64,000 nt of DNA from Nitrosomonas ureae. GTDB lineage: Bacteria; Pseudomonadota; Gammaproteobacteria; Burkholderiales; Nitrosomonadaceae. The notes under the pieces were generated by a model. It had not been told where the DNA came from. It saw nothing but the letters and a program-made list of their open reading frames with translations, and searched no databases. The position numbers were made by a program, and so were the translations under genes. Of this stretch, positions 16,297 to 37,473 are shown piece by piece (positions within the stretch are counted from its first letter, which is position 1; every line of letters starts with the position of its first letter). The stretch is from positions 62,001 through 126,000 of the forward strand of contig NZ_LT907782.1 in assembly GCF_900206265.1 (NCBI RefSeq), read 5' to 3'.

Positions 16297-17265
16297 ATGG
16301 TATTAGCACACATAAGAATGATTTCGATAATAGGACTAGTGTTTATTACCGTTCTCACTCTTACTGCTTGCGATAAAGAATCTAACACAAAAAAATCTGG
16401 GCAATCAATAGTAAGTGTTAATGGTTCTGAGATTACTATGCTTCAACTTAACGATGAAATAAGGCGGAGTAATATCCGGGCTGATCAATATGAGAGTGCG
16501 CGCGAACAATTATTGGAATCGCTCATTGCTCGTCAATTGATAGTTGACGAAGCTATAAGGAATAAGCTTGATCGTACACCTGAAGTGATGCAGGCACGGG
16601 AGCGTGCGAATGCCCAAGTGATTGCACAAGCATATTTACAGGGAATTATCAGTAAGATCGCAAAACCATCTAAAGCTGAGATTGAAGATTATTTCCAGAA
16701 AAATCCAGAGTTGTTTGCACAGCGCAAGCAATTTGATTTGACTACCGTACGAATTGCAACTAGTGATGTCAGTGAGGAGTTAAAGAGAGTAATAGATGCA
16801 GCAAAATCTATCGAAGAGGTTGTAACTTGGCTTGATAAAAATAAAATCCAATATTTTCGTACCCTGGCAACCCGAAGTAGTGCTGATCTACCGTTACAAT
16901 TAGTTTTAATGTTGCGTGAAAAAAGTAAAGACACTATTTATATCATCAATGAGCAAGAAAAAAGTATCTTGATTTCAGTTAATGCAATTAAAGATAATTC
17001 AGTTTCAGAGACTGCTGCGGCACCACAAATTGAAAGATTTTTGATCAATCAAAAATATAAAGAAGCAACAGATGCTGAAATTACACGTTTACGTACTTCA
17101 GCAAAAATTGAATATCTAAATGCGAAAACACCAGAACCCACTAATATAGAGAAATCGGAGAATCAGTCATTAAAAATTTTTCCAGAAACTTTGGGTAATA
17201 TTGACAATCCATCTGGAACAATTTCTGAAGGAGTAATTGAGCGGGGTATTTCAGGGCTAAAATAA
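16297..17265 (+). CDS. epsD: EpsD-family peptidyl-prolyl isomerase lipoprotein
   Basis: A 322-residue exported lipoprotein: the signal peptide ends in LTAC with Cys25 as the lipidation site. The body resembles SurA/PpiC-type chaperones (SVNGSEITMLQLNDEI, then QLLESLIARQLIVDEA), as in EpsD of methylotroph and Nitrosomonas exopolysaccharide loci. It probably helps fold outer-membrane or secreted components of the export machinery. It is the first gene of the eps operon, with a GAGGAAAG leader. The C-terminal 50 residues are low-complexity and hydrophilic. Confidence 0.82.
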   Translation: MVLAHIRMISIIGLVFITVLTLTACDKESNTKKSGQSIVSVNGSEITMLQLNDEIRRSNIRADQYESAREQLLESLIARQLIVDEAIRNKLDRTPEVMQARERANAQVIAQAYLQGIISKIAKPSKAEIEDYFQKNPELFAQRKQFDLTTVRIATSDVSEELKRVIDAAKSIEEVVTWLDKNKIQYFRTLATRSSADLPLQLVLMLREKSKDTIYIINEQEKSILISVNAIKDNSVSETAAAPQIERFLINQKYKEATDAEITRLRTSAKIEYLNAKTPEPTNIEKSENQSLKIFPETLGNIDNPSGTISEGVIERGISGLK

Positions 17266-17306
17266 ACATTTAGCTGTTGGATATAGGACAAATTAAGGAT
17301 AAGTAC

Positions 17307-18122
17307 ATGGAAAATATTATGAAGAAAGGGTGGCTATTGATTGTGTTTATGGTACTACTCTGGATAACTGGCATCGCTACTGCAGCTAATGGAGAAAAAA
17401 AAGAAAGCGTATTGGGACCCGGAGATACATTAAAAATATTTGTATTTGGTCAGCCAGATATGACTACTGAAGTGAAAGTAAGTGAGGCTGGAAATATAAC
17501 TTTTCCTCTATTAGGTGAAATATTTGTTGATGGACTAACACCTTCTGAAACTGAAAGAAAAATAGTTAAGCTGCTTGAGAGTAAAGATATTTTACGTAAG
17601 CCACAAGTAAACATCATTACTGCTTCGTTACAAAGTCAAATGGTATCTGTACTTGGCTATGTGCGTAACCAAGGGCGATATCCAATTGAGGGTAAACGCA
17701 GGTTGACCGAAATTCTGGCTATGGCAGGAGGGATTATTCCTGATGGGGCAGAACAGATTACTTTAATTCGTTCGAATGGTAGTAAATATGTTAAAGATGT
17801 AATCGATGTTTTGGAGATGATTCGGTCTGGCGATTTAAATCGTGATTTGAACATACGAAGTGATGATCTTGTCTATGTTGAAAGAGCCCCTCGTTTTTAT
17901 ATTTATGGTGAAGTACAACGTGCTGGAGTATACAAGCTTGAGCGTAATATGACAGTTATGCAAGCGTTGTCTGTGGGGGGTGGATTAACTCAACGAGGAA
18001 CTGAACGTGGTTTGCGGATTCAGCGTCGCGGGGTAGGGGGGAATCTGCAAATTCTAACTGTTAAATCGAGCGATTTGGTAGAGCCTGACGATGTAATTTA
18101 TATAAAAGAAAGTCTGTTTTGA
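17307..18122 (+). CDS. epsE: EpsE, Wza-type polysaccharide export protein
   Basis: A 271-residue periplasmic/outer-membrane exporter with a signal peptide (KKGWLLIVFMVLLWI). A Poly_export domain follows (LGPGDTLKIFVFGQPDMT, ITFPLLGEIFVDGLT) with two SLBB domains (VSVLGYVRNQGRYPIEG, FYIYGEVQRAGVYKLE). I chose ATG 17307 over TTG 17277 because AAGGAT lies 6 bases upstream and the signal peptide then starts normally. It has no lipobox, unlike E. coli Wza. It is followed by hairpin repeat C before epsF. Confidence 0.88.
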   Translation: MENIMKKGWLLIVFMVLLWITGIATAANGEKKESVLGPGDTLKIFVFGQPDMTTEVKVSEAGNITFPLLGEIFVDGLTPSETERKIVKLLESKDILRKPQVNIITASLQSQMVSVLGYVRNQGRYPIEGKRRLTEILAMAGGIIPDGAEQITLIRSNGSKYVKDVIDVLEMIRSGDLNRDLNIRSDDLVYVERAPRFYIYGEVQRAGVYKLERNMTVMQALSVGGGLTQRGTERGLRIQRRGVGGNLQILTVKSSDLVEPDDVIYIKESLF

Positions 18123-18174
18123 TATTTGCTTCAGGATTTTTCGATTTGTGCTGTGAAGTACACAGTGTAAGTTT

Positions 18175-18282
18175 AATCTCTGCGGGTTTAATTCCCCGCC
18201 CCCTTGGGGCGAAAGCTGGTTGAAAACCAGCAGATTGTAGAGCGCAGTTAATACCCCGCTGCTTGCGGCGGGGTGCTTTATT
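18175..18282 (+). repeat. 108-bp three-hairpin repeat, copy C, inside the eps operon
   Basis: Identical to copies A and B. It sits in the 184-bp gap between epsE and epsF, whereas neighbouring eps genes are close or overlap. Its GC-rich hairpins could pause or attenuate transcription or protect mRNA ends, so it may separate expression of epsDE from epsFG. Confidence 0.87.
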
Positions 18283-18306
18283 GAGGTTAGAAATAGGATT
18301 GTACGC

Positions 18307-19671
18307 ATGGATTTTTCTCGATTTTTTCTTATTATTTTAGCCCGCCGTACACTGATACTCTTAACACTTGTTGTGACAATGTCAACCACTTTATTGGTTA
18401 GCTTGTTAATGTCAAAGAGCTATAAGTCAACAGCGGTGATGGTACTTACCCATAAGGGGGCGGATCCTGTAACGGGATTGATAATGTCACCACAGCAAAT
18501 TACAGGTTACATGGCGACACAATTAGACATTATTAAAAGCTCAAGAACTGCATTGATGGTAGTTGATCAACTACGACTTGATCAGAATGAAGCTGTTGTG
18601 AGTCAACACAAACAAAGCAATTCTTCGTTGGGAATGCGCGAATGGTTGGCTGCTTTGCTCCTTAAGAATCTGGAAATTGAGACATCACGTGATAGTAGTG
18701 TGATTCGTATAAGTTTTAAAGGTACTGATCCTGCCTTTACTTCTGTTATTGCTAATGCTTTTGCAAATGCATATCAAGAAATTAGCATACGCCTTACAGT
18801 TGAGCCTTCACAAAAGGCAGCAACTTATTTTACTGATCAGCTTAATGTATTACGTGATAGATTGGAGATTGCACAAAAAAAACTAACTCAATATCAACAC
18901 TCACATGGAATTATTGATGCAGATTTTCGGCTTGATGTTGAAACAAAACGATTGAATGATCTGGCTAGTCAATTGGTGGCGGCACAAGCAGATCTGATTG
19001 GTGCAGAATCAAAACAAGAAGACGGTAATCGGAGTGGCGAGGCACATAGTGTTGCTAGAAATGCGGTAATTAACAATCTTAAAATCAATTTGTCGCAAGC
19101 TGAATCAAGGTTCTCTGATATTGCTCAAAAACTAGGTAAAAATCATCCTAGCTATATAGGAGCAAAAGCAGAAGTTGACAAACTTAGATCTGAGCTAAGT
19201 AGGCACATAAGCTTTACTGATAGAAGCGCAATCCATCAGGAAGCTGAGATTCGTAAGGCTCTTGAAGAGCAGAAAACAAAAGTGCTGACATTAAACCGTT
19301 CAAGAGATGAACTTCAAATTCTTGAAAGAGAAGTGGATGGTGCGCAGCAGGCGTATAACAGTGCGATGCAACGTTTAAATCAAACTAATCTTGAAGGACA
19401 ATCCAATTTATCGAGTGTTTCTATACTTGACACAGCAAAAACTCCAGATAAGCCAGATAGTCCTAAAATATTACTCAATTTGACTTTATCAGCATTTTTG
19501 GGAACTTTACTGGGAGTAGGGGCAGGATTGCTTGCAGAAATGATTGATCGACGAGTTCGCTCGGCAGAAGATCTAGTCGAAGTTCTCCATGCTCCTGTAT
19601 TGGGTATTATAAAGCGCGGCATTCCGAAAGAAAGACGCTTACAATTAGAATTGCCTCGTTTGCTACGATGA
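18307..19671 (+). CDS. epsF: EpsF, chain-length determinant (polysaccharide co-polymerase)
   Basis: The 454-residue inner-membrane protein has two terminal membrane helices: one at about residues 14-35 (LILLTLVVTMSTTLLVSLL) and one near 400-425 (LLNLTLSAFLGTLLGVGAGLL). They flank a long periplasmic region rich in coiled coil (about 170-370). This is the Wzz/GNVR architecture that controls polymer length and contacts the Wza-type exporter. The C-terminus is short and carries no kinase; the kinase-like partner EpsG follows with a 4-bp ATGA overlap. Confidence 0.88.
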   Translation: MDFSRFFLIILARRTLILLTLVVTMSTTLLVSLLMSKSYKSTAVMVLTHKGADPVTGLIMSPQQITGYMATQLDIIKSSRTALMVVDQLRLDQNEAVVSQHKQSNSSLGMREWLAALLLKNLEIETSRDSSVIRISFKGTDPAFTSVIANAFANAYQEISIRLTVEPSQKAATYFTDQLNVLRDRLEIAQKKLTQYQHSHGIIDADFRLDVETKRLNDLASQLVAAQADLIGAESKQEDGNRSGEAHSVARNAVINNLKINLSQAESRFSDIAQKLGKNHPSYIGAKAEVDKLRSELSRHISFTDRSAIHQEAEIRKALEEQKTKVLTLNRSRDELQILEREVDGAQQAYNSAMQRLNQTNLEGQSNLSSVSILDTAKTPDKPDSPKILLNLTLSAFLGTLLGVGAGLLAEMIDRRVRSAEDLVEVLHAPVLGIIKRGIPKERRLQLELPRLLR

Positions 19672-20606
19672 ATGATTCAGAAAGCTTTAAAGGAAACAAG
19701 ATGAGCATTCCAGATTCTTTAGAAACAAAGAAGCTGAACGATTCCAGTTTTATTACTACAAATGCAACTTCTGTACGTAAGTTTAGCATTGGGCACATTT
19801 TGCTAGATATGGGGAAAATTACGCCTGTTGAAGCTGAGCGTGTATTACGCTTGCAGAAAGAAAGCGGCTTACGCTTTGGTGATGCAGCCATAAAGTTAGG
19901 TTTAATAACCGAGGCGGATATCCAGTTAGTATTAGCACAACAATTTGATTATCCCTATTTGTTACCTGGACAAGGGAGTCACCCGCCGGAGTTAGTGGTT
20001 GCATATCAGCCGTTTGGTGCTCAAGTTGAAGTTTTTCGTGCAGTGAGAAGTCAATTAATGTTACGTTGGTTCACTTTTGAACGTAAAGCGCTAGCGATAA
20101 TTAGTTGTAACCCGAACGAAGGGGCGAGTCTTTTTGCCGCAAATCTTGCGGTGGTATTTTCTCAGCTTGGTGAGCGGACATTATTAATTGATGCTAATTT
20201 ACGTTGTCCGCAACAGCATGAGATTTTTAATCTGAAAAATAAGCAAGGTTTGTCTGATATACTCGTTGCTCGTGCTAATGTTTCAGAGGTTATTGCTAAA
20301 ATAGATTCATTTGTTGATCTTTCGGTGTTGCCTGCAGGCACGCTACCACCAAATCCTTTGGAGCTTCTTAATCGTTCGTCATTCGACGAAATGAACAATC
20401 AACTTGCGAGTCAATACGATGTTATTCTCTATGATACTTTAGCATTTTCTAACGGAGTTGATGCACTTGCTATTGCCGCTCGTACAGATGGCGCACTAAT
20501 AGTTGCACACAAGAACAATACTCGCTTGACTGATATCAACGCTATGAGTGAACAACTCAAATACAGTGGCACTGAGGTTGTAGGTTCAGTACTAATTGAT
20601 TTTTAG
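19668..20606 (+). CDS. epsG: EpsG, BY-kinase-like ATPase with altered nucleotide motifs
   Basis: The 312-residue protein has an N-terminal region resembling the GspE/MshE N-terminal fold (ILLDMGKITPVEAERVLRLQ, LGLITEADIQLVLAQQ) and a C-terminal ParA/MinD-type domain (about 125-312), as in EpsG tyrosine kinases paired with EpsF. The Walker A region reads NPNEGASLFAANLA, where Lys or Arg is expected before Ser. Walker A' reads LIDANLR instead of LIDADLR. No C-terminal tyrosine cluster is present. It may therefore regulate EpsF without normal kinase activity. Its start overlaps the epsF stop (ATGA). Confidence 0.82.
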   Translation: MNDSESFKGNKMSIPDSLETKKLNDSSFITTNATSVRKFSIGHILLDMGKITPVEAERVLRLQKESGLRFGDAAIKLGLITEADIQLVLAQQFDYPYLLPGQGSHPPELVVAYQPFGAQVEVFRAVRSQLMLRWFTFERKALAIISCNPNEGASLFAANLAVVFSQLGERTLLIDANLRCPQQHEIFNLKNKQGLSDILVARANVSEVIAKIDSFVDLSVLPAGTLPPNPLELLNRSSFDEMNNQLASQYDVILYDTLAFSNGVDALAIAARTDGALIVAHKNNTRLTDINAMSEQLKYSGTEVVGSVLIDF

Positions 20607-20624
20607 TAGATAATTTATTTATCC

Positions 20625-21515
20625 ATGCCTGTATATCAATTTAAAAGCCTCAAATCGGAGATTCTAGACTGGTGGCCTATCATTCTAGGAGGATTGGCTT
20701 TATATATTCCCACTTTTTATAGTCTGATGAATGGGATATGGACAAATGAGGAACAAGCTCATGGACCGATTATTTTGATACTTTCATTGTGGCTTATACT
20801 TCGAAAGTGGAAAACAATGATGAAAAAGAGTGATGGTCAATCAGCCTCAGCTTTCGGATGGATAATTCTTCTGGTCGCTCTTATTTTTTACATCGTTGGC
20901 GGCTCTCAACAGATATTAATACTAGAGATTGGTTCTTTTATTCTAATTTTAGCAGCAATCCTGCTTATTAAGCTGGGTTATGTTGCACTCAAAATCATGT
21001 GGTTTCCGTTATTTTTTTTATTATTTATGATTCCGTTGCCCGGTGCAATAGTTAGTTTCTTTACTATGCCAATGAAGATGGCTGTTTCGTATGTGGCAGA
21101 GAATATTTTGTTCTGGGCAAATTATCCCATCGCGAGAAATGGTGTAGTTTTGCAAATTGGACAGTATCAACTTCTTGTGGCTGATGCTTGTGCGGGACTA
21201 CAAACATTGCTAACTTTGGAAGCATTAGGCTTATTTTATTTGAATCTAGTGCATCATACTTCGGTTTTTCGGAATGTAGCACTGGCTATTCTTATCATAC
21301 CCATTTCTTTTACAGCTAATGTTATTCGCGTTATTGTTCTTACTTTAATTACTTATCATTATGGTGACGCGGCAGGACAAGGCTTTCTTCATGGATTTGC
21401 TGGTATGGTCTTATTTATTAGTGCATTAATATTGATTCTTGGGGTAGATGGATTGTTGCAGTATTTTTCGCGAACACAGCATGTCAACGTGATTTCACCA
21501 GTAAGAAATATTTAG
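20625..21515 (+). CDS. xrtB: Exosortase B (XrtB)
   Basis: A 296-residue multi-pass membrane protein of the exosortase/archaeosortase family, the predicted transpeptidase that recognises PEP-CTERM proteins. The catalytic residues are visible: Cys189 in VADACAGLQTLL, Arg235 in TANVIRVIVLT and His256 in GFLHGFAGMVLF. The position between epsG and epsI, and the match of EpsI to the B-type partner, identify the B subtype. A PEP-CTERM substrate is encoded at 57959-58486. It follows epsG by 18 bp. Confidence 0.92.
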   Translation: MPVYQFKSLKSEILDWWPIILGGLALYIPTFYSLMNGIWTNEEQAHGPIILILSLWLILRKWKTMMKKSDGQSASAFGWIILLVALIFYIVGGSQQILILEIGSFILILAAILLIKLGYVALKIMWFPLFFLLFMIPLPGAIVSFFTMPMKMAVSYVAENILFWANYPIARNGVVLQIGQYQLLVADACAGLQTLLTLEALGLFYLNLVHHTSVFRNVALAILIIPISFTANVIRVIVLTLITYHYGDAAGQGFLHGFAGMVLFISALILILGVDGLLQYFSRTQHVNVISPVRNI

Positions 21516-21639
21516 TTCTAATATTGTCTTATTTTTTTGTACCTATGAATCAATTTCAGCTTAATTTGCCTTAAGCTGCAAGCTCAACAGGATAAGAGAG
21601 TAAGTGAGAAAAGTAAGGAACTGAATGTGTTGGAGTAGC

Positions 21640-22440
21640 AAAAGCATTACGGAACGGAGAAGATCAGTGTCCAAGCATTATTTCAGCAATCTGGATAAGA
21701 GGATTTCTCTGCCTGAGCTGTGGGCATGATCATGGTTATGCCATAACAGCCTGTTACATTCGGGAATGGAGTTGTTGCCATAAGCAAACGTCGCTGACTG
21801 CAGAAACATTGTTTCATTCGACCAATCTATCGTTGGTTAAGTGGTTTTGGGTAATTTATCTGTTAGCTTCAGATAAAGGCGGTATTTCTGCGTTATGTTT
21901 ATTAAAGTAGTTTAATGTATCGTGGATTACGGTCAGTCGGATGTTGCGCAAAATTTGAATCGTCATGGAATGCCAGGATAGCATCTCTCAGTTAGAAGAA
22001 TTGACTGAAATTGACGATGCACTGATAGGAGGGCGACAGACTGGGGAAAATGTGCTGGGTTTATTGTCATTTAGTAATTTTCAGGCCTTAACTAGGAAAC
22101 GGTATCGCAATTTGTAAAACGACATCTCTCGCCTGATCAACGAGTGCTTAGTGATGCATTGCACTCACTGGCTGAGATCGGAAGAACTCAGGATATGATG
22201 CTGAGTGACGCTATCCCATAAAGCTGGAGAATGGTTACGCTGGGTACATACTGCGATTGGTAATCTTAAGCACTGTTGCTTGGAAACACCATGGGGGTAT
22301 CGTAAAAATACTTACAAGAAGTATCTGAATGAATTTTGTTATCGTTTTGACAGAAGAGCATGAGAAGCCGAATTACTCTCTAGACTCCTCAATGCATGTT
22401 TGACACATACTCATGCCAAACTGAGAATGGTATAGAGCAT
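21640..22440 (+). pseudogene. Decayed IS1595-family transposase
   Basis: Translation in shifting frames gives fragments of an IS1595 transposase: a zinc-ribbon-like start (GFLCLSCGHDHGYAITACY), then CCHKQTSLTAETLFHSTNL and FWVIYLLASDKGGISA, a middle part EIDDALIGGRQTGEN, and a C-terminal part WVHTAIGNLKHCCL then YLNEFCYRFDRRA. Several stops and frameshifts are present, so it is long dead. It fills most of the 979-bp gap between xrtB and epsI, two genes that normally lie side by side. No clear terminal repeats were found. Confidence 0.8.
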
Positions 22441-22494
22441 ACTGTTTTGTAGTCTTTATGGAATTTAAGACGCTAATAAGTAAGGAGAATATTA

Positions 22495-23181
22495 ATGCAT
22501 AAATCTCTGGTAGTTAACATATTAATTGGAGTATTGATGATCTCGTCTGGTGCTTTGACAATGGCTTTAACTCCTACCCAGAAGATTGCTGATCAGCAGG
22601 AAAAAATTAATCTCGAAATGATGATTCCTGACAGATTTGGAGATTGGAAAATCGATAGAACAATTGTTCCACTCCAGGTAGATGCCGAAACTCAGGCTAA
22701 ACTTGACAAAATCTATAACCAAACATTAGCTAGAACTTATGTTAATTCTCAAGGTGAACGGATTATGCTTTCAGTGGCTTATGGAGGGGATCAGAGTGAT
22801 AGTTTGTCGATACATAAACCCGAAGTATGCTACTACGCTCAGGGTTTCGAGATAAAAAATATTTTTCCTGGGGAACTACTCACTCAATATGGAAAATTAC
22901 CAATTAAGCGTTTGCTGGCCACTAAAGGTAATCGAAATGAGCCTATTACATATTGGGTTACAGTTGGTAATAGAGCTGTTCTACCCGGGTTTGATCAAAA
23001 GCTGCAGCAATTACGTTACGGTTTGACAGGGAGTATTCCAGACGGTATTTTGGTGAGAATTTCTTCTATAGATAATAATAATGACGTGGCTTATCAGCTT
23101 CAAGCTATTTTTATTCAAGATTTATTGTTAGCTGTTAATGTTAATCAGAGAGTAAGATTAATAGGTACTTTCCAGACATAA
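22495..23181 (+). CDS. epsI: EpsI, exosortase-associated protein (B type)
   Basis: A 228-residue membrane-anchored protein with one N-terminal helix. The EpsI-type body has PDRFGDWKIDRTIVPLQV, RTYVNSQGERIMLSVAYGG and the conserved HKPEVCYYAQGFEI with its Cys. EpsI accompanies or is fused to exosortases and is needed for exopolysaccharide production in related systems. It is separated from xrtB by the dead IS1595 element but keeps an AAGGAGAATATTA leader, so it is still well translated if transcribed. Confidence 0.88.
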   Translation: MHKSLVVNILIGVLMISSGALTMALTPTQKIADQQEKINLEMMIPDRFGDWKIDRTIVPLQVDAETQAKLDKIYNQTLARTYVNSQGERIMLSVAYGGDQSDSLSIHKPEVCYYAQGFEIKNIFPGELLTQYGKLPIKRLLATKGNRNEPITYWVTVGNRAVLPGFDQKLQQLRYGLTGSIPDGILVRISSIDNNNDVAYQLQAIFIQDLLLAVNVNQRVRLIGTFQT

Positions 23182-23431: not shown

Positions 23432-24937
23432 ATGAAAGCAGAAATATCATCATCCAGATTGTTTAATAATCTAGACTCTAAGACATTAATTTTTACCTTG
23501 CTGGTATTTAGCGTACTGGTTTTATCAATTCTTAGTGGCATACTTGCCGCATCTGGTAACATAATTTTTCTGGTTCCTTTGCTGGTTTTGTATGGCGTTT
23601 TTTTTATTCTTGCTGCACCAGTTGCTTGGACGGTCTGGATATTATTTTGGGGAGCATTTCTGATTACCGGACCCAGTGCTTATTTTATCCGTTTTTCACA
23701 GCTTCAGTGGTTTACGGTATTGGTGAGTGCAGCACTATTGTTGCCTTTATTGCTTCATTTGTTACGTGCTAAAACGGGTATAAAGTCAGTTTCATTCTCT
23801 GGTGATCTTATGGGTCCCATTGTCTTGGTTTTGCTGGTATTTTTTTCTACTGCCATTGACCAACCTCATTTTTCTGAATTTATAAATGCATCACGGTATT
23901 ATCTTCTAATGTGGCCATTAATGCTGGTTATTATGTTTGGCTTAATAACCGATAAAATGATAATGCAACTATGGAAAGCGCTTATGATTGTAGCAGTTTT
24001 ACAATTCCCGATGGCGATTTATCAATATTTTTTTGTAGTTCCAAGTAGTACGCGAACGTCCCGATGGGATGCTGTAATAGGCACATTTCATGGGGTTATA
24101 GAAGGTGGGGGAGATAGTGCCGCAATGGCTATTATGTTGTTGATTGCAATGTTAACTGCAATTGCATTGTGGCGCGAAGGAAAACTTAATGGTTTAAGAA
24201 TGGCTTTAGTTGTATTGTTTGGGCTTTTTACACTAGGCTTAGCAGAAGTTAAAGCAGCAGTTATGTTGCTGCCGATTGTTATAGGCTTGTATTATCGTAG
24301 AGAACTATTGAAACGGCCTGTAGAGTCAATTATCGTCATAATAGGAGCTGTTTTATTAGTCGGAGTTTTATTTACATTTTATGAGAAACTGCACTATGGA
24401 GATGTCTCTACTCATACCTTCAAGCAGAATCAGGTTACTTCAACGTATGATCGAGTGATGCGAGCAATAGATCCTGAGGCTCAGACATATGATGGTCGTG
24501 AATTGGGTCGTGTAAATCTTTTACTAAGTTGGTGGAATATTAATATCGGTAGTGGTGATCTACAACACAGTTTATTCGGTTATGGTATGGGTGCAACTTA
24601 TGAAAGCAGAATCGGGGTAGGCGAGTTAGTGGATCGTTTTCCATATAAGATAAATACATCTTCATCGCTTATATTATTATGGGAGATAGGTATTTTGGGA
24701 CATTTGGTTTTTCTCTTTATATTATTATTAGGAGCAAAAGCTTCGGAACGCGCTGCTGATAATGATGTTATTCCAGAAATTCATCGTATTTTTCTAAGGA
24801 TAGGCACAGTAGGACTGTTATTGTTGGTTTTAACGATGCCTTACAAGAATTTTCATTTGTATTCCAACCCGATCCAGTTTCTTATGATGTTGATGTTAGG
24901 TCAGGCTGCTTATTGGTCAAGATTCTTAAGTAAGTAA
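23432..24937 (+). CDS. O-antigen ligase/polymerase-like membrane protein
   Basis: The 501-residue protein has about a dozen hydrophobic segments and a large periplasmic loop (about residues 315-400, containing SRWDAVIGTF-like and DGRELGRVNLLLSWW segments), the layout of Wzy/WaaL-type proteins. In this locus it most likely polymerises repeat units in the periplasm. Family assignment rests on topology and context rather than on a sharp motif. Confidence 0.75.
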   Translation: MKAEISSSRLFNNLDSKTLIFTLLVFSVLVLSILSGILAASGNIIFLVPLLVLYGVFFILAAPVAWTVWILFWGAFLITGPSAYFIRFSQLQWFTVLVSAALLLPLLLHLLRAKTGIKSVSFSGDLMGPIVLVLLVFFSTAIDQPHFSEFINASRYYLLMWPLMLVIMFGLITDKMIMQLWKALMIVAVLQFPMAIYQYFFVVPSSTRTSRWDAVIGTFHGVIEGGGDSAAMAIMLLIAMLTAIALWREGKLNGLRMALVVLFGLFTLGLAEVKAAVMLLPIVIGLYYRRELLKRPVESIIVIIGAVLLVGVLFTFYEKLHYGDVSTHTFKQNQVTSTYDRVMRAIDPEAQTYDGRELGRVNLLLSWWNINIGSGDLQHSLFGYGMGATYESRIGVGELVDRFPYKINTSSSLILLWEIGILGHLVFLFILLLGAKASERAADNDVIPEIHRIFLRIGTVGLLLLVLTMPYKNFHLYSNPIQFLMMLMLGQAAYWSRFLSK

Positions 24938-28285: not shown

Positions 28286-29161
28286 ATGTTACCTGACTTC
28301 GTAGTAATTGGCGCATTTAAAGCGGGATCGACTTCGTTGCATCATTATTTTAGCCAGCATCCTAGTGTTTTTATGACCAAAGTAAAAGAGCCGAATTTCT
28401 TTGCTTTTGATTCAAAAAATAAAGTACATGCTGAAATGAATCGTCAGCAGTTTATGGTAACCAGTCTTTCCGAATATGAATCGCTATTTGATGCTGCTAG
28501 GGTTGATCAAATTAAGGGAGAAGTTTCCCCTTATTATTTATATAGCTCTGTTGCTTTGCAGAAAATGAAAGAAATAGTGCCGACGATTAAAATGATTGCA
28601 TGTTTACGGAATCCGGTGGGAAGAGCTTATTCGCATTATCTAATGCGACTTCGCTCAGGGAAGGAAACAAAATCACCCGAGGAAGCGTTTTCTGAAGACG
28701 CTTTTTGGGTTAGAGCTAGCTTGTATGCCAATGCAATACAAAGTTATCAGCAAGTTTTTGATAACAAACAACTTAAATTTGTATTGTTTGATGATCTTAT
28801 CAATGATCCACAAACACTGATGTCCGAACTATTTAGCTTTATAGGTGCCGATTCAAATTTTCAGGTGAATACTGATTATAGATTCAACCCCGGCGGTACC
28901 CCCAAGTTGCCATGGTTACATCATGGGTTGAGTGCATTGAAGCGTATACCTGGGTTACGTCAATATACCCCACCTTTTATCAGAAACCGTCTTGCGCGAA
29001 TTAGAGATAAGAATCTTGCGCCTGCAAAAGTATTATCAATGGATGTGCAGCAACAATGGCTGAAATTTTATCGGGATGATATTTCACGTGTACAAGATAT
29101 TTTGCATCTTGATCTATCAGACTGGTTAAAAGTTAAAAAGCCCAAAAATCAAGCAATATAG
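28286..29161 (+). CDS. Sulfotransferase domain protein (sulfotransferase 3)
   Basis: The 291-residue protein has the PAPS 5' loop VIGAFKAGSTSLHHYF and the 3'-phosphate motif MIACLRNPVGRAYSHYLM. The intervening SPYYLYSS motif is typical of heparan-type Sulfotransfer_1 proteins. No signal peptide is present. It lies directly before the relic IS5/IS407 block, which may cut the transcript. Confidence 0.87.
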   Translation: MLPDFVVIGAFKAGSTSLHHYFSQHPSVFMTKVKEPNFFAFDSKNKVHAEMNRQQFMVTSLSEYESLFDAARVDQIKGEVSPYYLYSSVALQKMKEIVPTIKMIACLRNPVGRAYSHYLMRLRSGKETKSPEEAFSEDAFWVRASLYANAIQSYQQVFDNKQLKFVLFDDLINDPQTLMSELFSFIGADSNFQVNTDYRFNPGGTPKLPWLHHGLSALKRIPGLRQYTPPFIRNRLARIRDKNLAPAKVLSMDVQQQWLKFYRDDISRVQDILHLDLSDWLKVKKPKNQAI

Positions 29162-29324: not shown

Positions 29325-30046
29325 ATGTCATGCCAATCTTCGCATCTATTGTCTGCAGAATGGGTTCCATCTGCCTGACCGGCAGATGGAAGATGCCTTG
29401 TACAAGATCGATAGCTCACAGCGCTTTGCGGGATTCAGCGGAGTTACCGATGCTCTGCCGGACGAGACCACGATACTGAATTTCCCGCATCTTTTGGAGG
29501 GGCACCTATTGACGGTGGTATTGGTATTGTTTGAGGCGATCAAGGCTCAGAGACCGTTGGTTTCCAAAGGTACCATAGTGGACGCCACACTCATTCATAC
29601 TCCAAGTTCGACCAAGAAACGGGAACGGGCGCGTGATCCTGAAATGCATCAGACGAAGAAGGGGAAGCACGGGCACTTTGGCATGAAAGTGCATGCTGGG
29701 GCAGACGTGGATTCCAGAGCGGCGCATACGGTTGAAATTGCCGCTGCCAATGAAGCCGATATCAACATCCTGTCCAAGCAGCTGTGGGTGGAAGACGAGG
29801 TTACTTTTGGCGATACGGGCTACACCAGTGATGAATACAAACGCGGGGCACGACAGTTTGGATTCACCCGGACCCGCACCGCGGACAGATGAAGAATGCT
29901 GTCCAGGTGAATATACTGTTTGGCCAACCTGCAGGCGACTGCTGACCAGTTGAGGAATAAGGCCGCTCAAAATACCCCGGCGGCAGACGATGAGCGGAAA
30001 CGGGGGAAATTCGGCGGCAAATTGCCGCTGAAGAATAAAGTGCCGC
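29325..30046 (+). pseudogene. IS5-family transposase, internally deleted and interrupted
   Basis: The ATG at 29325 begins MSCQSSHL as in IS5 transposases. The frame then jumps near 29350 to LQNGFHLPDRQMEDALYKID, with loss of about 50-60 residues. From 29386 a long frame carries the DDE domain (ETTILNFPHLLE, IVDATLIHTPSSTKK, FGMKVHAGADVDS, FGDTGYTSDEYKR) to a stop at 29890. The remaining C-terminus appears in another frame (DDERKRGKFGGKLPLKN) and is split by IS407 copy 3 at 30046. Confidence 0.8.
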
Positions 30047-30120
30047 GGTAATCCCCCCAGAAAATAACAGGAGTCAGAAGTAGAATTTTCTTGTAATTTA
30101 TATAGACAGGAGATTCTGCA

Positions 30121-30387
30121 ATGAAGAAATCGAAATTCAGTGACAGCCAGATCATGGCGATACTCAAACAGGCCGAGGGAGGAGTGCCGGTGCCTGAATT
30201 GTGCCGTGAACACGGTATGAGTAATGCGACATTTTACAAATGGCGCAGCAAATACGGCGGTATGGATGCATCAATGATAGCCCGACTCAAGGAACTTGAA
30301 GAAGAGAATCGCTGGTTGAAAAAGATGTATGCTGAGGAACGGTTAAAATCCGAGCTACGTAAGGAAGCCCTCGAAAAAAAGTGGTAG
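30121..30387 (+). CDS. IS407-group OrfA, copy 3
   Basis: The 88-residue HTH/leucine-zipper protein is identical to the other two copies. Leader AGGAGATTCTGCA; ends at the A7-G slippery site. Confidence 0.92.
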
Positions 30388-31211
30388 CGCCCTGGCAGCG
30401 GCGCGACATGGCTAAACAGGTTGTTAAGCAAAAAAGGATCAGTATCCGCCTGGCGTGTGAGATCTATGATATCAGCGAAACATGTTACCGTTATCAAGCC
30501 AGGCTCAATGCTGATAACCGTATCATTGCCGATTGGCTGCTGCGGTTGACGCACAATCAGCGAAACTGGGGGTTTGGTTTATGCTTTCTGTACTTACGCA
30601 ATGTAAAAGGTTTTTTCTGGAACCACAAGCGTGTTTATCGTATTTACCGGGAGTTGGAACTGAACATGCGGATCAAGCCGAGAAAGCGGCTCAAACGTGA
30701 CAAGCCGGAAGTGCTGGCGGTACCGTTAACCATCAATGAAACCTGGTCAATGGATTTCATGTATGACCAATTGGAAGATGGCCGCAGCTTTCGGTTACTC
30801 AATATACTGGACGACTGCAATCGTGAAGGATTGGGAATAGAGGTGGATTTCTCCTTACCTGCAGGGCGCGTCATACGCACGCTGGATCGCCTGATCGAAT
30901 GGCGCGGCAAGCCAAAGCGGATTCGCTGTGACAACGGCCCTGAGTACATCAGCGGCTTACTCTCTGCCTGGGCGGCAAAGAACGGCATACAGCTGGAATT
31001 CATACAGCCCGGCAAACCTCAGCAAAACGCCTACATTGAACGTTACAACAGAACCGTACGTTATGACTGGTTAAGCCAGCACTGCTTTGAGTCAATCGCC
31101 GAAGTTCAGGACTATGCAACAAAATGGTTGTGGACCTATAATCATGAACAGCCTAATACGGCCATTGGAGGAATAACACCAAAACAAAAGCTCGCTCAGT
31201 TAGCGCATTAA
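30381..31211 (+). CDS. IS407-group transposase OrfB, copy 3
   Basis: A 276-codon frame with the DDE core intact; its protein matches copy 2 (Arg in LYLRNVK). It is expected to be expressed as a -1 frameshift fusion with OrfA. Confidence 0.92.
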
Positions 31212-31690: not shown

Positions 31691-32905
31691 ATGAAAATGC
31701 TTTATATCGTAGAGGATCGTTTTCCACCATTCCGTGCAGATGTTGTGGAGTTGTTTGCAAAACAGATGCCGGATCGAGGCCATCAGATTGATTGGTTAAT
31801 GCAAAGGGGGCCAGATGCGCTCAATTTGCTATCGCCTACAGATTGGTTGGGGAATGTTGTGTATCTCACTCCACGGAGCAAGTGGCAGGGATTATTTGGC
31901 CGGATACTGAACAACTTGCTAGGCATGCGAGGGGATTTAATGATTTTGTTTCTTGCTTTTAAGAACCGCTATGACGTAATTCAAGTACGCGATAAGTTTT
32001 TTGCTAGCTTAATCGCTTGGTTGGCAGCCCGTTTGACCGGTGCTCGCTTTACTTACTGGATGTCTTATCCGTTTGCCGAGTCTAAACTGTACCAAGCCCA
32101 TAATAAGCTTGTGCCGCATCACCGACTTGTTTGGCTAAAAGGGCAGCTTATTCGAAATTTGCTTTATAAGATAATTTTGCCATCAGCAGATCATATTTTT
32201 GTGCAAAGCGATCGAATGAAAGAAGATGTTGCTCAAGAGGGTATTTCTCCCGACAAGATGACCGCTGTGCCAATGGGTATTCGTGCTGATCAGGTAGGTA
32301 AAGCTGAAGATGCCAAAGCTCTAAACATACATGCACCTCTTTTACTACATCTCGGGATCATTATGCAATTGCGTCAATCAGAGATGCTAGTACGTGTACT
32401 TCAGCAAGTGCGGTTGCGTTATCCTGACGCGCGTTTGCTATATGTGGGCGATGGCCAACTGCCAAGCGATCGTCAAGCAGTAGAGGAGGAAGCATCTCGA
32501 CTGGAGCTATCGAAGGCCGTAACAGTAACAGGTTTCATGCCTATGGAAACTGCCTGGGAGCTGGTCGAACAAGCAGATATTTGCTTTTCGCCTTTCTATC
32601 CTGTTCCGGTGTTACTTTCCACTTCACCCACGAAACTCGTCGAATATATGGCTATGGCTAAATGCATAGTTGCTAATGAACATCCTGAACAATGTCAAGT
32701 AATGGAATCGAGTGGAATTGGACGTTGTGTACCATGGGGTGAACAATCCTTTGTTGATGAGGTTTGCAAGTTGTTGGATGATCCTGAACGTGCGCGAATG
32801 CTGGCATCGAGAGGACCAGACTGGGTACGAAAGTACCGTACTTATGATGTTATTGCCGACCGAGTAGAGTCACAATACAAAAAAATACTTGGATTGACAA
32901 AATGA
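31691..32905 (+). CDS. Glycosyltransferase family 4 protein
   Basis: The 404-residue cytoplasmic GT-B transferase has an N-terminal acceptor domain (MKMLYIVEDRFPPFRAD), then a GT4 donor domain with LLHLGIIMQ, LLYVGDGQLPSDRQ, VTVTGFMPMETAWEL and the E-x7-E-like segment in CFSPFYPVPVLLSTSPTKLVEYMAMAK. It adds a sugar during repeat-unit assembly. It overlaps the flippase gene by 4 bp. Confidence 0.86.
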   Translation: MKMLYIVEDRFPPFRADVVELFAKQMPDRGHQIDWLMQRGPDALNLLSPTDWLGNVVYLTPRSKWQGLFGRILNNLLGMRGDLMILFLAFKNRYDVIQVRDKFFASLIAWLAARLTGARFTYWMSYPFAESKLYQAHNKLVPHHRLVWLKGQLIRNLLYKIILPSADHIFVQSDRMKEDVAQEGISPDKMTAVPMGIRADQVGKAEDAKALNIHAPLLLHLGIIMQLRQSEMLVRVLQQVRLRYPDARLLYVGDGQLPSDRQAVEEEASRLELSKAVTVTGFMPMETAWELVEQADICFSPFYPVPVLLSTSPTKLVEYMAMAKCIVANEHPEQCQVMESSGIGRCVPWGEQSFVDEVCKLLDDPERARMLASRGPDWVRKYRTYDVIADRVESQYKKILGLTK

Positions 32906-34425
32906 ACAGCTCCGGTCTTTATTTCGGTAACCGTTTTCGCCAAGCGATAGTGCATTATTTATTGGGGCGGACTGCACAAGCAATTTCTTCTTTTATTTTT
33001 ATAATCTGGCTGGTTCGCTTATTATCCCCGGTGGATTATGGTGCTTACATGGTTTTGTGGGGCATGGTGGAAATGATGGCGCCATTGAGTTCCTTAGGTA
33101 TGCTCGAGGCGGTGCGGCGTTTTCTACCCGAATTAGCATTGCGAGGAGCACCCAGCGCTCTTGCATGGTTTGTGCGCTGGATGACTCTAATTCGTTTTGC
33201 CATCATGATAATTTGGACAGCACTAATATCTGCTTTTTGGCTGGATATTTCTGCATGGCTGGGTTTCAGTGCTCCGCAGCAAGACGCTACGTTAGTAGCA
33301 GTTGGATTGATTATTACCGTCATTGGTTTTCGGTATGCATCAGAAATGTTGGAATCCCTTTTAGAGCAAAGATGGGCGCAGTTGATTCATTCATTAATGT
33401 CAATTGGACGTTTGGCTGGGGTTGCAATATTAGTATTAATTGAGAGTTTGTCGATCGAACAATTACTGTGGATGGATTTAATTGTTTCATTAGTCTGTTT
33501 AATATGGGCCGAATTTCTCTTAATGCGAAAATTACGCAGCATACAAAGTACGGGGGATTTTCATGTAAGTGCATATGAAATATTTAATTTTGCATGGCAC
33601 ATGGCAGGTGTGAATCTTCTTCGGGCCGTTGCTAACCCTGGTGCGCTGCGTATGCTGGTGGCCAGAACCTTAGGGCTTGAGACTGCGGGAATGTTTGCTT
33701 TTTTGCAGCAATTATTGTTAATTGCTGGACGCTACCTTCCGGCAAAGTTGTTGGCGAATATTATTCGGCCTATGCTGATATCTCGCTATGTAGCGGGAGA
33801 GGTTGATGCGGTTAAAGAGGGAATGGCTTTGTTGTGGAAGAGTAATTTTTTAATAATTGCTATTTGTATGGCAGCATTGAGTGTTGCAGGCAATGAATTA
33901 ATTTCTTTGGCAAGTAGTGGGCGTTTCGTCGATGCTGGCACGGTTATGGTAATTATGCTGCTTGGCTTGGGTGCAACAAGTCAAGGCCAGTTAGTTGTTA
34001 TGATTATGCAGATTTTTCCGTATACACGCCAATTAAGGTACCTCAGCATATTATCGGCAATAACACCGATAGCGGTAATAGTTGGCTCAAACTGGGGATT
34101 GATGGGCGTAGTATGTGGAATCGTGCTAGGTGCATGGTTAATGAATAGTTTGACTTTGCTTTGGTTGAATTATCAGGCTGGTCGTATCCAATTAGATTGG
34201 TTGGGAACTATACGTGGCCTTAGCATTGCTATATTTCTGGCGGCTATCGGCTGGGCAATTGAAGACAAATTAGGAGTATGGTGGACGCTGACATTTGTTT
34301 TAGTAGCTTACGTACCTGGCTTAATGCTGGCGAAGCCATTAAACCAATCAGATATGGCGCTACTTAACCGAGGATTGCGTCACCGTGCCCGGATATTTCT
34401 GCATTTTACTTCGAAAAGTTTATAA
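32902..34425 (+). CDS. Wzx-like polysaccharide flippase (MOP superfamily)
   Basis: The 507-residue membrane protein has about 12-14 hydrophobic segments and the MOP/polysaccharide-synthesis pattern (N-terminal TAQAISSFIFIIWLVRLLS, then DYGAYMVLWGMVEM). It would move lipid-linked repeat units across the inner membrane for the polymerase at 23432-24937. It overlaps the upstream GT4 stop codon (ATGA). Confidence 0.85.
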   Translation: MNSSGLYFGNRFRQAIVHYLLGRTAQAISSFIFIIWLVRLLSPVDYGAYMVLWGMVEMMAPLSSLGMLEAVRRFLPELALRGAPSALAWFVRWMTLIRFAIMIIWTALISAFWLDISAWLGFSAPQQDATLVAVGLIITVIGFRYASEMLESLLEQRWAQLIHSLMSIGRLAGVAILVLIESLSIEQLLWMDLIVSLVCLIWAEFLLMRKLRSIQSTGDFHVSAYEIFNFAWHMAGVNLLRAVANPGALRMLVARTLGLETAGMFAFLQQLLLIAGRYLPAKLLANIIRPMLISRYVAGEVDAVKEGMALLWKSNFLIIAICMAALSVAGNELISLASSGRFVDAGTVMVIMLLGLGATSQGQLVVMIMQIFPYTRQLRYLSILSAITPIAVIVGSNWGLMGVVCGIVLGAWLMNSLTLLWLNYQAGRIQLDWLGTIRGLSIAIFLAAIGWAIEDKLGVWWTLTFVLVAYVPGLMLAKPLNQSDMALLNRGLRHRARIFLHFTSKSL

Positions 34426-34542: not shown

Positions 34543-35667
34543 ATGTCTAAAAACCACGAAAATATAAAGATCATGCATGTTATCAACGGAGAATTTTTCT
34601 CTGGTGCTGAGCGAGTGCAGGATGTATTGGCAGTACGACTACCGGATTATGGTTATGAGATAGGTTTTTGTTGCATAAAGCCCGGAAAATTTTCTGCTTG
34701 CCGGAATTCTACTGTACCGATCTTTGAGACATTTATGAAATCTAAATTTGATCTGGCGCCGGCTTTGGAGATTGCAAGAATTGTAAAGCAAAATAACTAC
34801 TCCTTGTTGCATGCACATACTCCTCGCGCGGTATTAGTGGGACGCATAGCGGCGTGGTTATCCGGCGTACCATTAGTGCATCATGTACATAGCCCGACGA
34901 TACGAGATACAGAAAGCGTGTGGCGTAATCGAATGAATTCACTTATAGAGCGATTAAGTTTAGTGGGCGTAGCGCAATTAATTCCAGTATCGAGAAGTCT
35001 GGAGTTTTATTTGAAGAAGCAAGGCTGGTCAGAGAAACGAATTACAATGGTTGCCAATGGAGTAGTCACGCCGGCCACACTGCCAGTAAGAGATGCGCCT
35101 GGGCCAGAGTGGGTGATTGGGAGTGTGGCATTGTTTCGGCCGCGTAAAGGTACGGAAATTTTGATACAGGCATTGGCAAATCTACGTCAGGCGGGCCGTT
35201 CGGTAAGATTGCGTGCAGTAGGCCCATTTGAGACTATGGAATATGAGAAAACGATTAAAGAGATGGCGGATAGACTCGGGGTAGGGAACATGATCGACTG
35301 GATTGGATTCGCTCAAGATGTCAATGCCGAATTCACTCAAATGGATATTCTTGTTTTGCCGAGTCTCTTTGGAGAAGGTATGCCGATGGTAATTCTAGAA
35401 GCAATGGCAACAGGAGTTCCGGTAGTAGCATCTGATGTAGAAGGTATTCCTGAGGTATTAGAGCATGGTAAAACCGGGTTGATAGTGCCAGCTGGTGATG
35501 TAAAGAAACTGGCTGCTGCCATAGCTGATTTAATCGATAATAAATATGACTGGCGTGCCATGCGAGAAGCTGCTTACCAATTGCAAGTAGCAAGCTTTTC
35601 TGATTACAGTATGGCCAAAGGTGTGGCACGTGTTTATGATGCGATTCTGAATTCTATGCATCGTTAG
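34543..35667 (+). CDS. Glycosyltransferase family 4 protein
   Basis: The 374-residue GT-B enzyme has an N-terminal FFSGAERVQDVLA motif, a HAHTPRAVLVGRIAA strand and a GT4 donor site (FRPRKGTEILIQAL, IDWIGFAQDVNAEF, LPSLFGEGMPMVILEAMA, the last containing the E-x7-E motif). It is a second backbone or side-chain transferase of the locus. Confidence 0.88.
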   Translation: MSKNHENIKIMHVINGEFFSGAERVQDVLAVRLPDYGYEIGFCCIKPGKFSACRNSTVPIFETFMKSKFDLAPALEIARIVKQNNYSLLHAHTPRAVLVGRIAAWLSGVPLVHHVHSPTIRDTESVWRNRMNSLIERLSLVGVAQLIPVSRSLEFYLKKQGWSEKRITMVANGVVTPATLPVRDAPGPEWVIGSVALFRPRKGTEILIQALANLRQAGRSVRLRAVGPFETMEYEKTIKEMADRLGVGNMIDWIGFAQDVNAEFTQMDILVLPSLFGEGMPMVILEAMATGVPVVASDVEGIPEVLEHGKTGLIVPAGDVKKLAAAIADLIDNKYDWRAMREAAYQLQVASFSDYSMAKGVARVYDAILNSMHR

Positions 35668-35703
35668 AATATCAGCTACTAAAGACTCAACCAATCATTA
35701 GGA

Positions 35704-36492
35704 ATGAAACAGAGCATGCATCAAATTCCCTTATTCGGCCTGAAAATAGAAGATACGACGTTAACTGATGCCAGCGCAAATATTGTCAATGATGCTAAAT
35801 CAGGGGTGCAGCGTAAAATATATTTCGTCAATGCACATTGCATAAATGTTGCTGCGGTAAATATTGATTACCTTTCAGTATTACAAGATAAAGCAATGCT
35901 ATTTGCCGATGGCAGTGGTATGCGCTTAGCTGCGGGATTAGCTGGTTTTTCTCTAAAAGATAATGTCAATGGTACCGATTTATTTCCGCTGATCTGTCAT
36001 GATGCCGCTGTAGCTGGTGTCAAATTAGCTTTATTGGGTGCTCGTCCAGGAATTGCAGAACGCTGTGCTGAAAATATGAAAATTCAATTTCCTGAGTTAG
36101 ATATCGCATGGGTTCATGATGGCTACTTTAAGCGGGATACTGAAGAAGATATTATCGCTGCTATTAATCGTAGCGGAGCGGAAATCCTGTTTGTAGCGAT
36201 GGGGGTTCCCATGCAGGAACTATGGATCGCGCGTCATGTAAATAAACTTCGTGCGCCTGTTTTGCTGGGTGTGGGCGCCTTATTTGATTTTTATTCAGGG
36301 GTTATGCCACGAGCGCCCCATTGGATGCGTCGCTTTGGTTTGGAATGGTTATTTCGGTATGGGATGGAGCCAAAACGAATGTTTGTGCGATATATCATAG
36401 GTAATCCCGTATTTATTATTCGAATGCTATGGCGGCGTTTAAAAGGTCAGAAGAATCTACAAGAAGCGGCCTTGCTTGATGGTGTGAAGTAA
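35704..36492 (+). CDS. WecG/TagA/CpsF family glycosyltransferase
   Basis: The 262-residue GT26 enzyme has the conserved ADGSGMRLAAGL, LLGARPGIAERCAENM and VAMGVPMQELWIARH blocks, with PRAPHWMRRFGLEWLFR near the C-terminus. These enzymes add ManNAc-type or glucose residues to lipid-linked intermediates. The ATG at 35704 has AGGA almost touching it; the ATG at 35716 would have better spacing, so the start is uncertain by four codons. Confidence 0.88.
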   Translation: MKQSMHQIPLFGLKIEDTTLTDASANIVNDAKSGVQRKIYFVNAHCINVAAVNIDYLSVLQDKAMLFADGSGMRLAAGLAGFSLKDNVNGTDLFPLICHDAAVAGVKLALLGARPGIAERCAENMKIQFPELDIAWVHDGYFKRDTEEDIIAAINRSGAEILFVAMGVPMQELWIARHVNKLRAPVLLGVGALFDFYSGVMPRAPHWMRRFGLEWLFRYGMEPKRMFVRYIIGNPVFIIRMLWRRLKGQKNLQEAALLDGVK

Positions 36493-36525
36493 AAGCGAAA
36501 AAATTCGCCCTGACTCAGAATATAC

Positions 36526-37473
36526 TTGAAAAATAATGTTGATTTTAAATTTATGAAAGAAATATCTGGTGTGAATCTGGCTAACTTCATTATCGCGGGT
36601 ACGGAGAAAGCCGGCACAACCTCGATATTTACGTATCTAAGTACCCATCCGTCGGTTTGTGGCTCATCTGTTAAAGAAACGGATTTTTTTCGTAATTCAT
36701 TTACTGGTAATCGCGAGAAAGATATTGTTAATTACTCAAATTATTTTGTGCGCTGTTCTCCTGAGATCCGGATTGTTATGGAAGCCTCACCGGGATATCT
36801 GGGTAGTGGTGCAGAAGTGGCAGCTCGCATTCATACATTGGTGCCGAGAACCAAACTACTGTTCATATTAAGAAATCCCATCGACCGAATATACTCTTCA
36901 TTTAATTTTCATGTTGGAAAGCTGAATCTGGCGTCTGATTTAAGCTTTGAGAAATATATTGATAAGTGTATTGCGTATGATTCTGGTCAAAGAACGCCAG
37001 CAGAACTGGGTATTAAAGAATGGTACTTAAAGATTATCAGTTTTGGTCGGTATGCTGACTATTTGAAATACTATTATCAATTATTTCCAGAAAATCAAAT
37101 AAAGATTATGTTTTTTGAGAATATGAGTCAGGATATTGACGGATTCATGTACGAGCTGTGTCAGTTTTTAGAAATTTCTCCAGACTATTTCAATGAATAT
37201 GATTTTAGAAGAATTAATGTTACCTACGAAAGCAAGTTGAAATGGTTGCATAAAATCGCGGTCTACTTTAACGCCAAGTCCGAACGGTTTCTACGGCAAC
37301 GACCCGAATTGAAGCAATTAATGGTGAAATTATACAAGAAAATTAATCAAGCAAGAGAAGGGTATGATGAAATTCCCGATGAAAGCCGTGATCGTTTAAA
37401 ACAATATTATTTACCCAGCATTGTGGCACTGCAAACGTTTACTGGAACAAAAAATATACCCTGGAATATTTAA
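36526..37473 (+). CDS. Sulfotransferase domain protein (sulfotransferase 4)
   Basis: A 315-residue protein with the PAPS 5' loop IIAGTEKAGTTSIFTYL and the 3'-phosphate motif LLFILRNPIDRIYSSFNFH. MEASPGYLG marks the usual strand between them. The start is TTG 36526 or ATG 36553; neither has a good ribosome-binding site. It is the last gene of the locus, followed by a strong terminator. Confidence 0.86.
   Translation: MKNNVDFKFMKEISGVNLANFIIAGTEKAGTTSIFTYLSTHPSVCGSSVKETDFFRNSFTGNREKDIVNYSNYFVRCSPEIRIVMEASPGYLGSGAEVAARIHTLVPRTKLLFILRNPIDRIYSSFNFHVGKLNLASDLSFEKYIDKCIAYDSGQRTPAELGIKEWYLKIISFGRYADYLKYYYQLFPENQIKIMFFENMSQDIDGFMYELCQFLEISPDYFNEYDFRRINVTYESKLKWLHKIAVYFNAKSERFLRQRPELKQLMVKLYKKINQAREGYDEIPDESRDRLKQYYLPSIVALQTFTGTKNIPWNI

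Follow-up and report, generated by a model that had tools for sequence, protein, structure and literature searches.

Two described systems come closest to the locus reported here. In the marine Vibrio sp. KMM 8419, a sulfated capsule is encoded by a locus with an ABC transporter and with cysNDC inside the cluster, and the same study names genes for the synthesis of the sulfate donor 3′-phosphoadenosine 5′-phosphosulfate (PAPS), together with sulfotransferases, as a hallmark of sulfated polysaccharide clusters (PMC11641403). The other is the methanolan-type eps/exosortase locus of Methylobacillus sp. 12S, for which the excerpted text of a paper citing it mentions no sulfation (PMC1569441). Among ammonia oxidisers, a sulfotransferase is described in a polysaccharide cluster of the gammaproteobacterium Nitrosococcus oceani AFC132 (PMC7285500), and among the open-licence PMC papers listed for nitrifier sulfotransferases or sulfated exopolysaccharide (EPS), judged by title and start of the abstract, none describes such a pathway in Nitrosomonas. 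Here, we analyse an EPS locus with four sulfotransferase genes in a 64,000-nucleotide stretch of Nitrosomonas ureae DNA (the window, G000:C1:62001-126000; the genome is one contig of 3,064,188 bases, rated 100% complete), and we consider it likely that this Nitrosomonas-like ammonia oxidiser uses the locus to make a sulfated EPS by a Wzx/Wzy route. The closest named XrtB loci found are from Nitrosomonas (N. ureae Nm13 at 94%), and amoC, amoA and amoB, in a row about 91 kb right of the EPS locus, identify the host as an ammonia oxidiser. Like the Vibrio locus, the EPS locus brings sulfotransferases and PAPS genes together with a polysaccharide locus; unlike it, it has Wzx/Wzy with XrtB/EpsI, comes from an ammonia oxidiser and has its PAPS genes elsewhere in the genome (in five relatives, cysC lies near epsD).

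The proteins of the EPS backbone were judged by NCBIfam curated cut-offs and the other locus proteins by Pfam (Table 1). XrtB, EpsI of type B and EpsE/F/G, which mark an exosortase-B EPS locus, are all encoded in the window, and EpsL (306 bits) and, directly 3′ of it, a WcaJ-type initiating transferase (TIGR03023, 512 bits) are encoded outside it, at about C1:180-183 kb. In its epsD-epsI backbone, EpsL and initiating transferase, this arrangement presumably resembles the gene order of the methanolan locus. All the named locus genes are intact open reading frames (ORFs), which confirms the positions given in a preliminary description of the window for epsDEFG, xrtB/epsI, the Wzx- and Wzy-like proteins, two GT4 and one GT26 glycosyltransferases and the four sulfotransferases. 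The Wzy-like protein has no Pfam or NCBIfam match, and its gene serves below as a marker of the type of polymer module. The four sulfotransferases (ST2a, ST1b, ST1c and ST1d, in locus order) all scored above the Pfam cut-off, the first with PF03567 and the other three with PF00685. In the same order, they carry the stretches HIPKTAG, GAQKCAST, GAFKAGST and GTEKAGTT, which we take to be 5′-phosphosulfate-binding-like, and RNPWDRLVSAY, RDPIERAYSNH, RNPVGRAYSHY and RNPIDRIYSSF, which we take to be 3′-phosphate-binding-like. As the four sequences are divergent, we infer that several positions of the polymer may be modified.

The nearest solved structure to ST1b, ST1c and ST1d is 3rnl, an Alicyclobacillus sulfotransferase for which the match tables name no substrate (profiles against PDB: 1.2e-28, 3.9e-38 and 9.9e-19, respectively). 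Further matches were heparan-sulfate 3-OST-5 (1e-22) and NDST (5.5e-16) for ST1b, heparan-sulfate 3-OST-3 (2.1e-9) for ST1c, and heparan-sulfate 3-OST-3 (1.8e-9) and NDST (1.7e-8) for ST1d. For ST2a, no PDB entry matched at E<=0.01. The top Foldseek matches of an ST1b model (pLDDT 75) were 3rnl, NDST1 and 3-OST-3 (E 1e-12 to 1e-10), with TM-scores on the query of 0.50-0.62 and an identity of 18-26%, and TPST and SULT enzymes were matched only from 3e-6 on, below the glycan sulfotransferases. The closest solved relatives of known substrate are glycosaminoglycan sulfotransferases, rather than SULT or TPST enzymes, with a likeness in sequence for all three proteins and in fold for ST1b, the latter at that low identity.

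We compared the locus across related genomes and found that the order wzy-ST2a-ST1b-27056-ST1c-GT4a-wzx-GT4b-GT26-ST1d is kept in four of them (G090, G063, G045 and G085) and that two more (G091 and G089) have the same order from wzy to ST1d as far as the contig extends or across two contigs. The ratio of nonsynonymous to synonymous substitutions (dN/dS) was 0.05-0.18 for the sulfotransferase genes and 0.05-0.20 for the other locus genes (against G090, G045 and G091; ST1d against G090 and G045), and the sulfotransferase genes are, by this measure, under purifying selection. With six relatives sharing the order and with ratios this low, the gene set is more than a chance assembly. In a wider set of congeners, ST1b-type and other sulfotransferases occur alongside the same kind of Wzy. 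When the XrtB loci of relatives were counted (54 loci, of which 44 are congeneric and 10 are from the 23 genomes of the Nitrosospira/Nitrosovibrio group, g3; the window was excluded and six loci with <5 kb downstream were dropped, leaving 48), a sulfotransferase was present in 18 of the 21 loci whose Wzy is of the window type (at least 500 bits), against 3 of the 27 other XrtB loci (Fisher 2e-7, not kinship-corrected). Among 80 named XrtB loci, examined with our own sulfotransferase profiles and flanks of up to 10 kb, some on short contigs, 15 bear a sulfotransferase, namely, 14 of 28 from Nitrosomonas, one from 'uncultured beta proteobacterium isolate AOB' and 0 of 51 others.

The idea that sulfation goes with XrtB/EpsI was therefore rejected, as the backbone occurs without sulfotransferases in many relatives and their presence tracks the Wzy type; judged by this distribution, sulfation goes with the polymer module rather than with XrtB. 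Of the preliminary interpretation, the sulfated EPS pathway has become better supported, whereas the proposal that a sulfated matrix and PEP-CTERM proteins are made together found no support, because polymer modules that lack sulfotransferases share the XrtB backbone. The same observations bear on whether the sulfotransferases act on PEP-CTERM glycoproteins, which XrtB would then anchor, or on some other glycan linked to protein, instead of a free EPS. The presence of XrtB/EpsI within the locus, the 12 PEP-CTERM matches in the genome (10 of them above cut-off) and a granule study that ascribes its sulfate signal to glycoprotein (PMC6291783) would agree with this, but XrtB loci without sulfotransferases are common in the family, and the ST1b model matches glycan sulfotransferases much better than TPST enzymes, which makes protein-linked targets unlikely.

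It is very improbable that the four enzymes sulfate a lipid, lipopolysaccharide or small molecule and are merely located in this locus. PF00685 is a broad family, and two further PF00685 sulfotransferases of this genome (L011 8473-9402 and L010 9257-10156) match SULT1-type enzymes (9e-31 and 3e-23 against PDB); the SULT type, which was assigned by score, with the PDB comparison covering this genome's two copies, occurs in at least 56 of 85 genomes of the genus among the matches listed. However, three of the four locus sulfotransferases match glycosaminoglycan sulfotransferases, and all four stand among polymer genes, in an order that relatives share. We give hardly any credence to a silencing by insertion sequences (IS) in this strain of a pathway that once worked in the lineage. 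The two insertions of Table 1, for which the xrtB-epsI and ST1c-GT4a gaps, respectively, have no room in the relatives' loci L143-L147, and promoter-like sites 3′ of the IS block (29386-31211) that are not above chance would speak for it. Against it, the locus ORFs are all intact with low dN/dS, although such values reflect the history of the lineage rather than the period after the insertions.

A sulfated EPS would require PAPS, and no genes for its synthesis lie inside the EPS locus of this strain. The preliminary description had found neither these genes nor an initiating transferase in the window, which is correct; both are nevertheless present in the organism, as the genes for CysD and, next, a CysN-CysC fusion of 634 residues (1066 bits) lie at about C1:535-538 kb, which overturns the assumption of missing PAPS genes. 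One CysH scored above the cut-off for adenosine 5′-phosphosulfate (APS) reductases (TIGR02055, 264 vs 235 bits) and below that for PAPS reductases (TIGR02057, 153 vs 254), and both CysH proteins carry CC and CxxC cysteines, the mark of Fe-S APS reductases, so that cysteine synthesis can probably, though not with certainty, do without APS kinase. We then counted intact cysC, defined by a score of at least 200 bits, against any sulfotransferase (PF00685 or PF03567). In 125 genomes of the family, 70 had both, 4 a sulfotransferase only, 16 cysC only and 35 neither (Fisher 2e-14), and in the 85 of the genus the numbers were 59, 4, 6 and 16 (Fisher 3e-9), i.e., intact cysC in 59 of 63 genomes with a sulfotransferase versus 6 of 22 without.

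In five genomes without sulfotransferases (G034, G035, G038, G039 and G040; L203-L207), the CysNC frame persists, but different changes have destroyed the kinase P-loop, and the sequence around KGLYKKARxGELKNFTGIDSPYE has been lost or eroded. Both elements are intact in 11 of 11 aligned sequences from sulfotransferase-bearing genomes, and also in G015, G023, G032, G051 and G076, which have no sulfotransferase; some sulfotransferase-bearing genomes (G026, G052 and G064) have a separate intact cysC plus a weak fused match. In three pairs with kinase decay, dN/dS was 0.13-0.25 for CysC vs 0.03-0.04 for CysN, and three pairs free of decay gave 0.00-0.09 and 0.02-0.06, respectively (dS >1 in several). 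On a SucC+SucD tree of 79 of the 85 genus genomes (G014, G039, G048, G054, G066 and G082 left out), seven independent differences in sulfotransferase presence lay on well-supported branches, and cysC differed in the same way in 4.5 of them on average and in the opposite way in 0.2 (median p 0.125). When the pairs were chosen by cysC instead, 11 were obtained, with sulfotransferases differing the same way in 4.3, the opposite way in 0.0 and not at all in 6.7 (median p 0.125).

Directly 3′ of cysNC lies the gene of a DHH/DHHA1-like protein with DHH and GGGRKxAAG stretches. Its own matches to DHH/DHHA1 and RecJ profiles are weak and below cut-off, the relative from G047 passes DHHA1 (36.8 vs 25.9 bits), and there was no PDB match at E<=0.1. 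As DHH enzymes are able to hydrolyse 3′-phosphoadenosine 5′-phosphate (PAP; PMC8268124), the by-product of sulfotransferases, we propose this protein as a candidate recycler that probably hydrolyses leftover PAP. It shares both stretches with the NrnA/DHH-DHHA1 pAp phosphatases described there, and PAP removal would fit its place beside cysC, whereas its weak profile matches and the empty PDB search set it apart from them. The gene was found in 71 of the 125 family genomes, and within the genus 49 genomes had both it and a sulfotransferase, 14 a sulfotransferase only, 0 the DHH gene only and 22 neither (p 3e-11); it is thus present in 49 of 63 genomes with and 0 of 22 without sulfotransferases, and all 49 carriers have one. 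On the tree, the two differed in the same way in 4.6 and in the opposite way in 0.0 of 7 pairs (median p 0.0625). Adjacency to the cysC match was assessed in 63 genomes with both genes placed (G107, with its DHH gene in pieces, was left out), and the distance was 500 bp or less in 40 of 47 from the genus. In G019, G020, G047, G048 and G079, the pair formed by the DHH gene and a cysC with a CysN remnant is found at a distance of 0.4-1.4 kb from epsD and is oriented away from it; in G019, a nucleotidyltransferase gene separates cysC from epsD. No CysQ of this genome reached the curated cut-off (best 112.5 of 228.8 bits); a CysQ-like activity may still exist, since there are two weaker members of the wider family and the cut-off is strict (passed in 2 of 14 control genomes).

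In summary, the sulfated EPS reading is strengthened by the glycan-type sulfotransferases, the PAPS supply, the initiating transferase, the conserved order, the purifying selection and the co-occurrence with cysC and the DHH gene, where gene content, families, gene order, selection and co-occurrence are all read from the sequence. The WcaJ-type transferase encoded elsewhere would start the unit on undecaprenyl phosphate, and the GT4 and GT26 enzymes would lengthen it. We infer that the sulfotransferases act on this polymer, the four of them adding sulfate from PAPS to specific sugars of the unit in the cytoplasm, before Wzx would flip the unit, the Wzy-like protein polymerise it and EpsE/F/G with EpsL export the polymer; this order of steps and the choice of sugars belong to the same proposal. 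CysD and the CysN-CysC fusion would supply the PAPS, with the adjacent DHH/DHHA1-like phosphoesterase probably hydrolysing the leftover PAP.

Several observations weigh against this reading. The KExxFF stretch of ST1b, which we take to be tied to the heparan-sulfate sulfotransferase family, has Gln in place of Glu in 2 N. marina rows of 15, and the IS insertions may interrupt transcription of the locus in this strain. Both CysH proteins score above the cut-off of NF002537 (by its name a model of phosphoadenylyl-sulfate reductase), and the second scores above none of those for APS reductases, so that PAPS may also feed cysteine. The Fisher tests of cysC and sulfotransferases leave kinship in, and the tree-based pair tests of both cysC and the DHH gene, which agree in direction, did not reach significance, being too small. 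Four genomes have a sulfotransferase and no intact cysC (G030, G053, G057 and G061); in G057, the kinase is split in two pieces over two contigs and G061 is 75% complete, both possibly assembly gaps, and the clear exception is G053, 100% complete, with four PF00685 and one PF03567 matches and no cysC match. Conversely, six congeners without sulfotransferases retain cysC, five of which were seen intact (the five named above). Co-occurrence is no proof of cause, because SULT-type sulfotransferases are also frequent, and their presence in most sulfotransferase-bearing congeners could alone account for cysC; in the seven genus genomes with sulfotransferases and no SULT type, by score and among the matches listed, cysC was kept in 7 of 7. 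In g3 (n=23), cysC and the DHH gene are often present without sulfotransferases: the DHH gene was not associated with them (7 both, 1 sulfotransferase only, 11 DHH gene only, 4 neither; p 0.6) and was associated with cysC (17 both, 1 with each alone, 4 neither; p 0.003), with the two adjacent in 0 of 16. A DHH relative of 46-47% identity also occurs in four g4 genomes (G118, G119, G121 and G122), all of which lack cysC as well as sulfotransferases. The tie of the DHH gene may therefore be to PAPS instead of the EPS locus, or its role may be another.

With four sulfotransferases in a slime locus, and with relatives that lack them tending to lack sulfate-donor genes, the coat of these nitrifiers is probably a sulfated polysaccharide. 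Alcian blue at pH 1 stained the matrix of granules in which ammonia oxidisers made up 92% (+/- 4%), a signal read as sulfate esters on glycoproteins, and the excerpted text of that study names no polysaccharide pathway (PMC6291783). Sulfated glycosaminoglycan-like material has also been measured in granular sludge, with few sulfotransferase matches in the abundant genera, and its authors consider the bacterial pathways for such material to be not well known (PMC10483923). We suggest, tentatively and with somewhat less than even confidence, that a matrix polymer with several sulfate groups, resembling glycosaminoglycans, is produced by many ammonia oxidisers of the genus Nitrosomonas and is one source of the sulfated glycoconjugates in nitrifying granules. 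On this view, an APS kinase and a DHH phosphatase would form a cassette that delivers PAPS, recycles PAP, can be separated from cysteine synthesis and comes and goes together with the sulfotransferases. The locus provides named genes and strains for this question (N. ureae Nm13, N. marina Nm22 and Nm71), with relatives that lack sulfotransferases (N. oligotropha Nm45) as natural controls, and it supplies bacterial relatives of heparan sulfotransferases and a candidate PAP-recycling gene.

Table 1. Features of the EPS locus (window positions) and the DHH gene (position in L008).
Feature	Position	Strand	Evidence
epsD, peptidyl-prolyl isomerase of EPS locus	16297..17265	+	TIGR02925, 160 bits, above cut-off
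epsE, export protein	17277..18122	+	TIGR03028, 297 bits, above cut-off
epsF, chain-length determinant	18307..19671	+	TIGR03017, 523 bits, above cut-off
epsG, tyrosine kinase-like partner	19668..20606	+	TIGR03029, 349 bits, above cut-off
xrtB, exosortase B	20625..21515	+	TIGR03113, 412 bits, cut-off 275
Insertion with short ORF remnants, read as a probable old IS	21516..22494		between xrtB and epsI
epsI, type B	22495..23181	+	NF045609, 302 bits, cut-off 220
Wzy/O-antigen-ligase-like membrane protein, presumed polymerase	23432..24937	+	hydrophobic sequence, syntenic
ST2a sulfotransferase	25130..25849	+	PF03567, 2.3e-17 (run from longer start 25040)
ST1b sulfotransferase	25890..26777	+	PF00685, 6.1e-15
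Protein, possible glycoside hydrolase	27056..28198	+	weak GH-family matches; kept in close relatives' loci
ST1c sulfotransferase	28286..29161	+	PF00685, 2.7e-14
IS block, DDE_Tnp_1 fragment and rve/HTH_21 (IS3-type) transposase	29386..31211 (start about)		between ST1c and GT4a
GT4 glycosyltransferase (GT4a)	31691..32905	+	PF13692, 1.1e-15
Wzx-like flippase	32902..34425	+	PF01943, 1e-5, 25.6 bits, slightly below cut-off 28.2
GT4 glycosyltransferase (GT4b)	34543..35667	+	PF00534, 3.8e-38
GT26 (WecG/TagA/CpsF) glycosyltransferase	35704..36492	+	PF03808, 4e-59
ST1d sulfotransferase	36526..37473	+	PF00685, 1.8e-17
DHH/DHHA1-like protein gene, 319 residues	L008 10164-11123		directly 3′ of cysNC; below-cut-off matches

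A glycoside-hydrolase role of the protein at 27056-28198 could not be shown, given the weak matches and a low-confidence model (pLDDT 48). The IS3-type transposase is present in three near-identical copies, at 11368-12198 (-), 14604-15434 (-) and 30381-31211 (+), where each of the first two is identical to the third in 829 of 831 bases, and two copies in opposite orientation bracket the first half of the EPS locus. One of the above-cut-off PEP-CTERM matches lies within the window (58403-58477, G000:C1:120403-120477) in a 186-residue frame, and this protein is a possible candidate substrate of XrtB. The region of the initiating transferase (C1:180.3-193.3 kb; L009 5324-18344) shows that this gene ends about 7 kb upstream of the amoCAB run, with one nuclease gene and one helicase gene in between. 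The genome also encodes two paralogous succinyl-CoA-ligase-like beta subunits with 53% identity, one in the window (40983-42143) and one at G000:C1:1869044-1870189.

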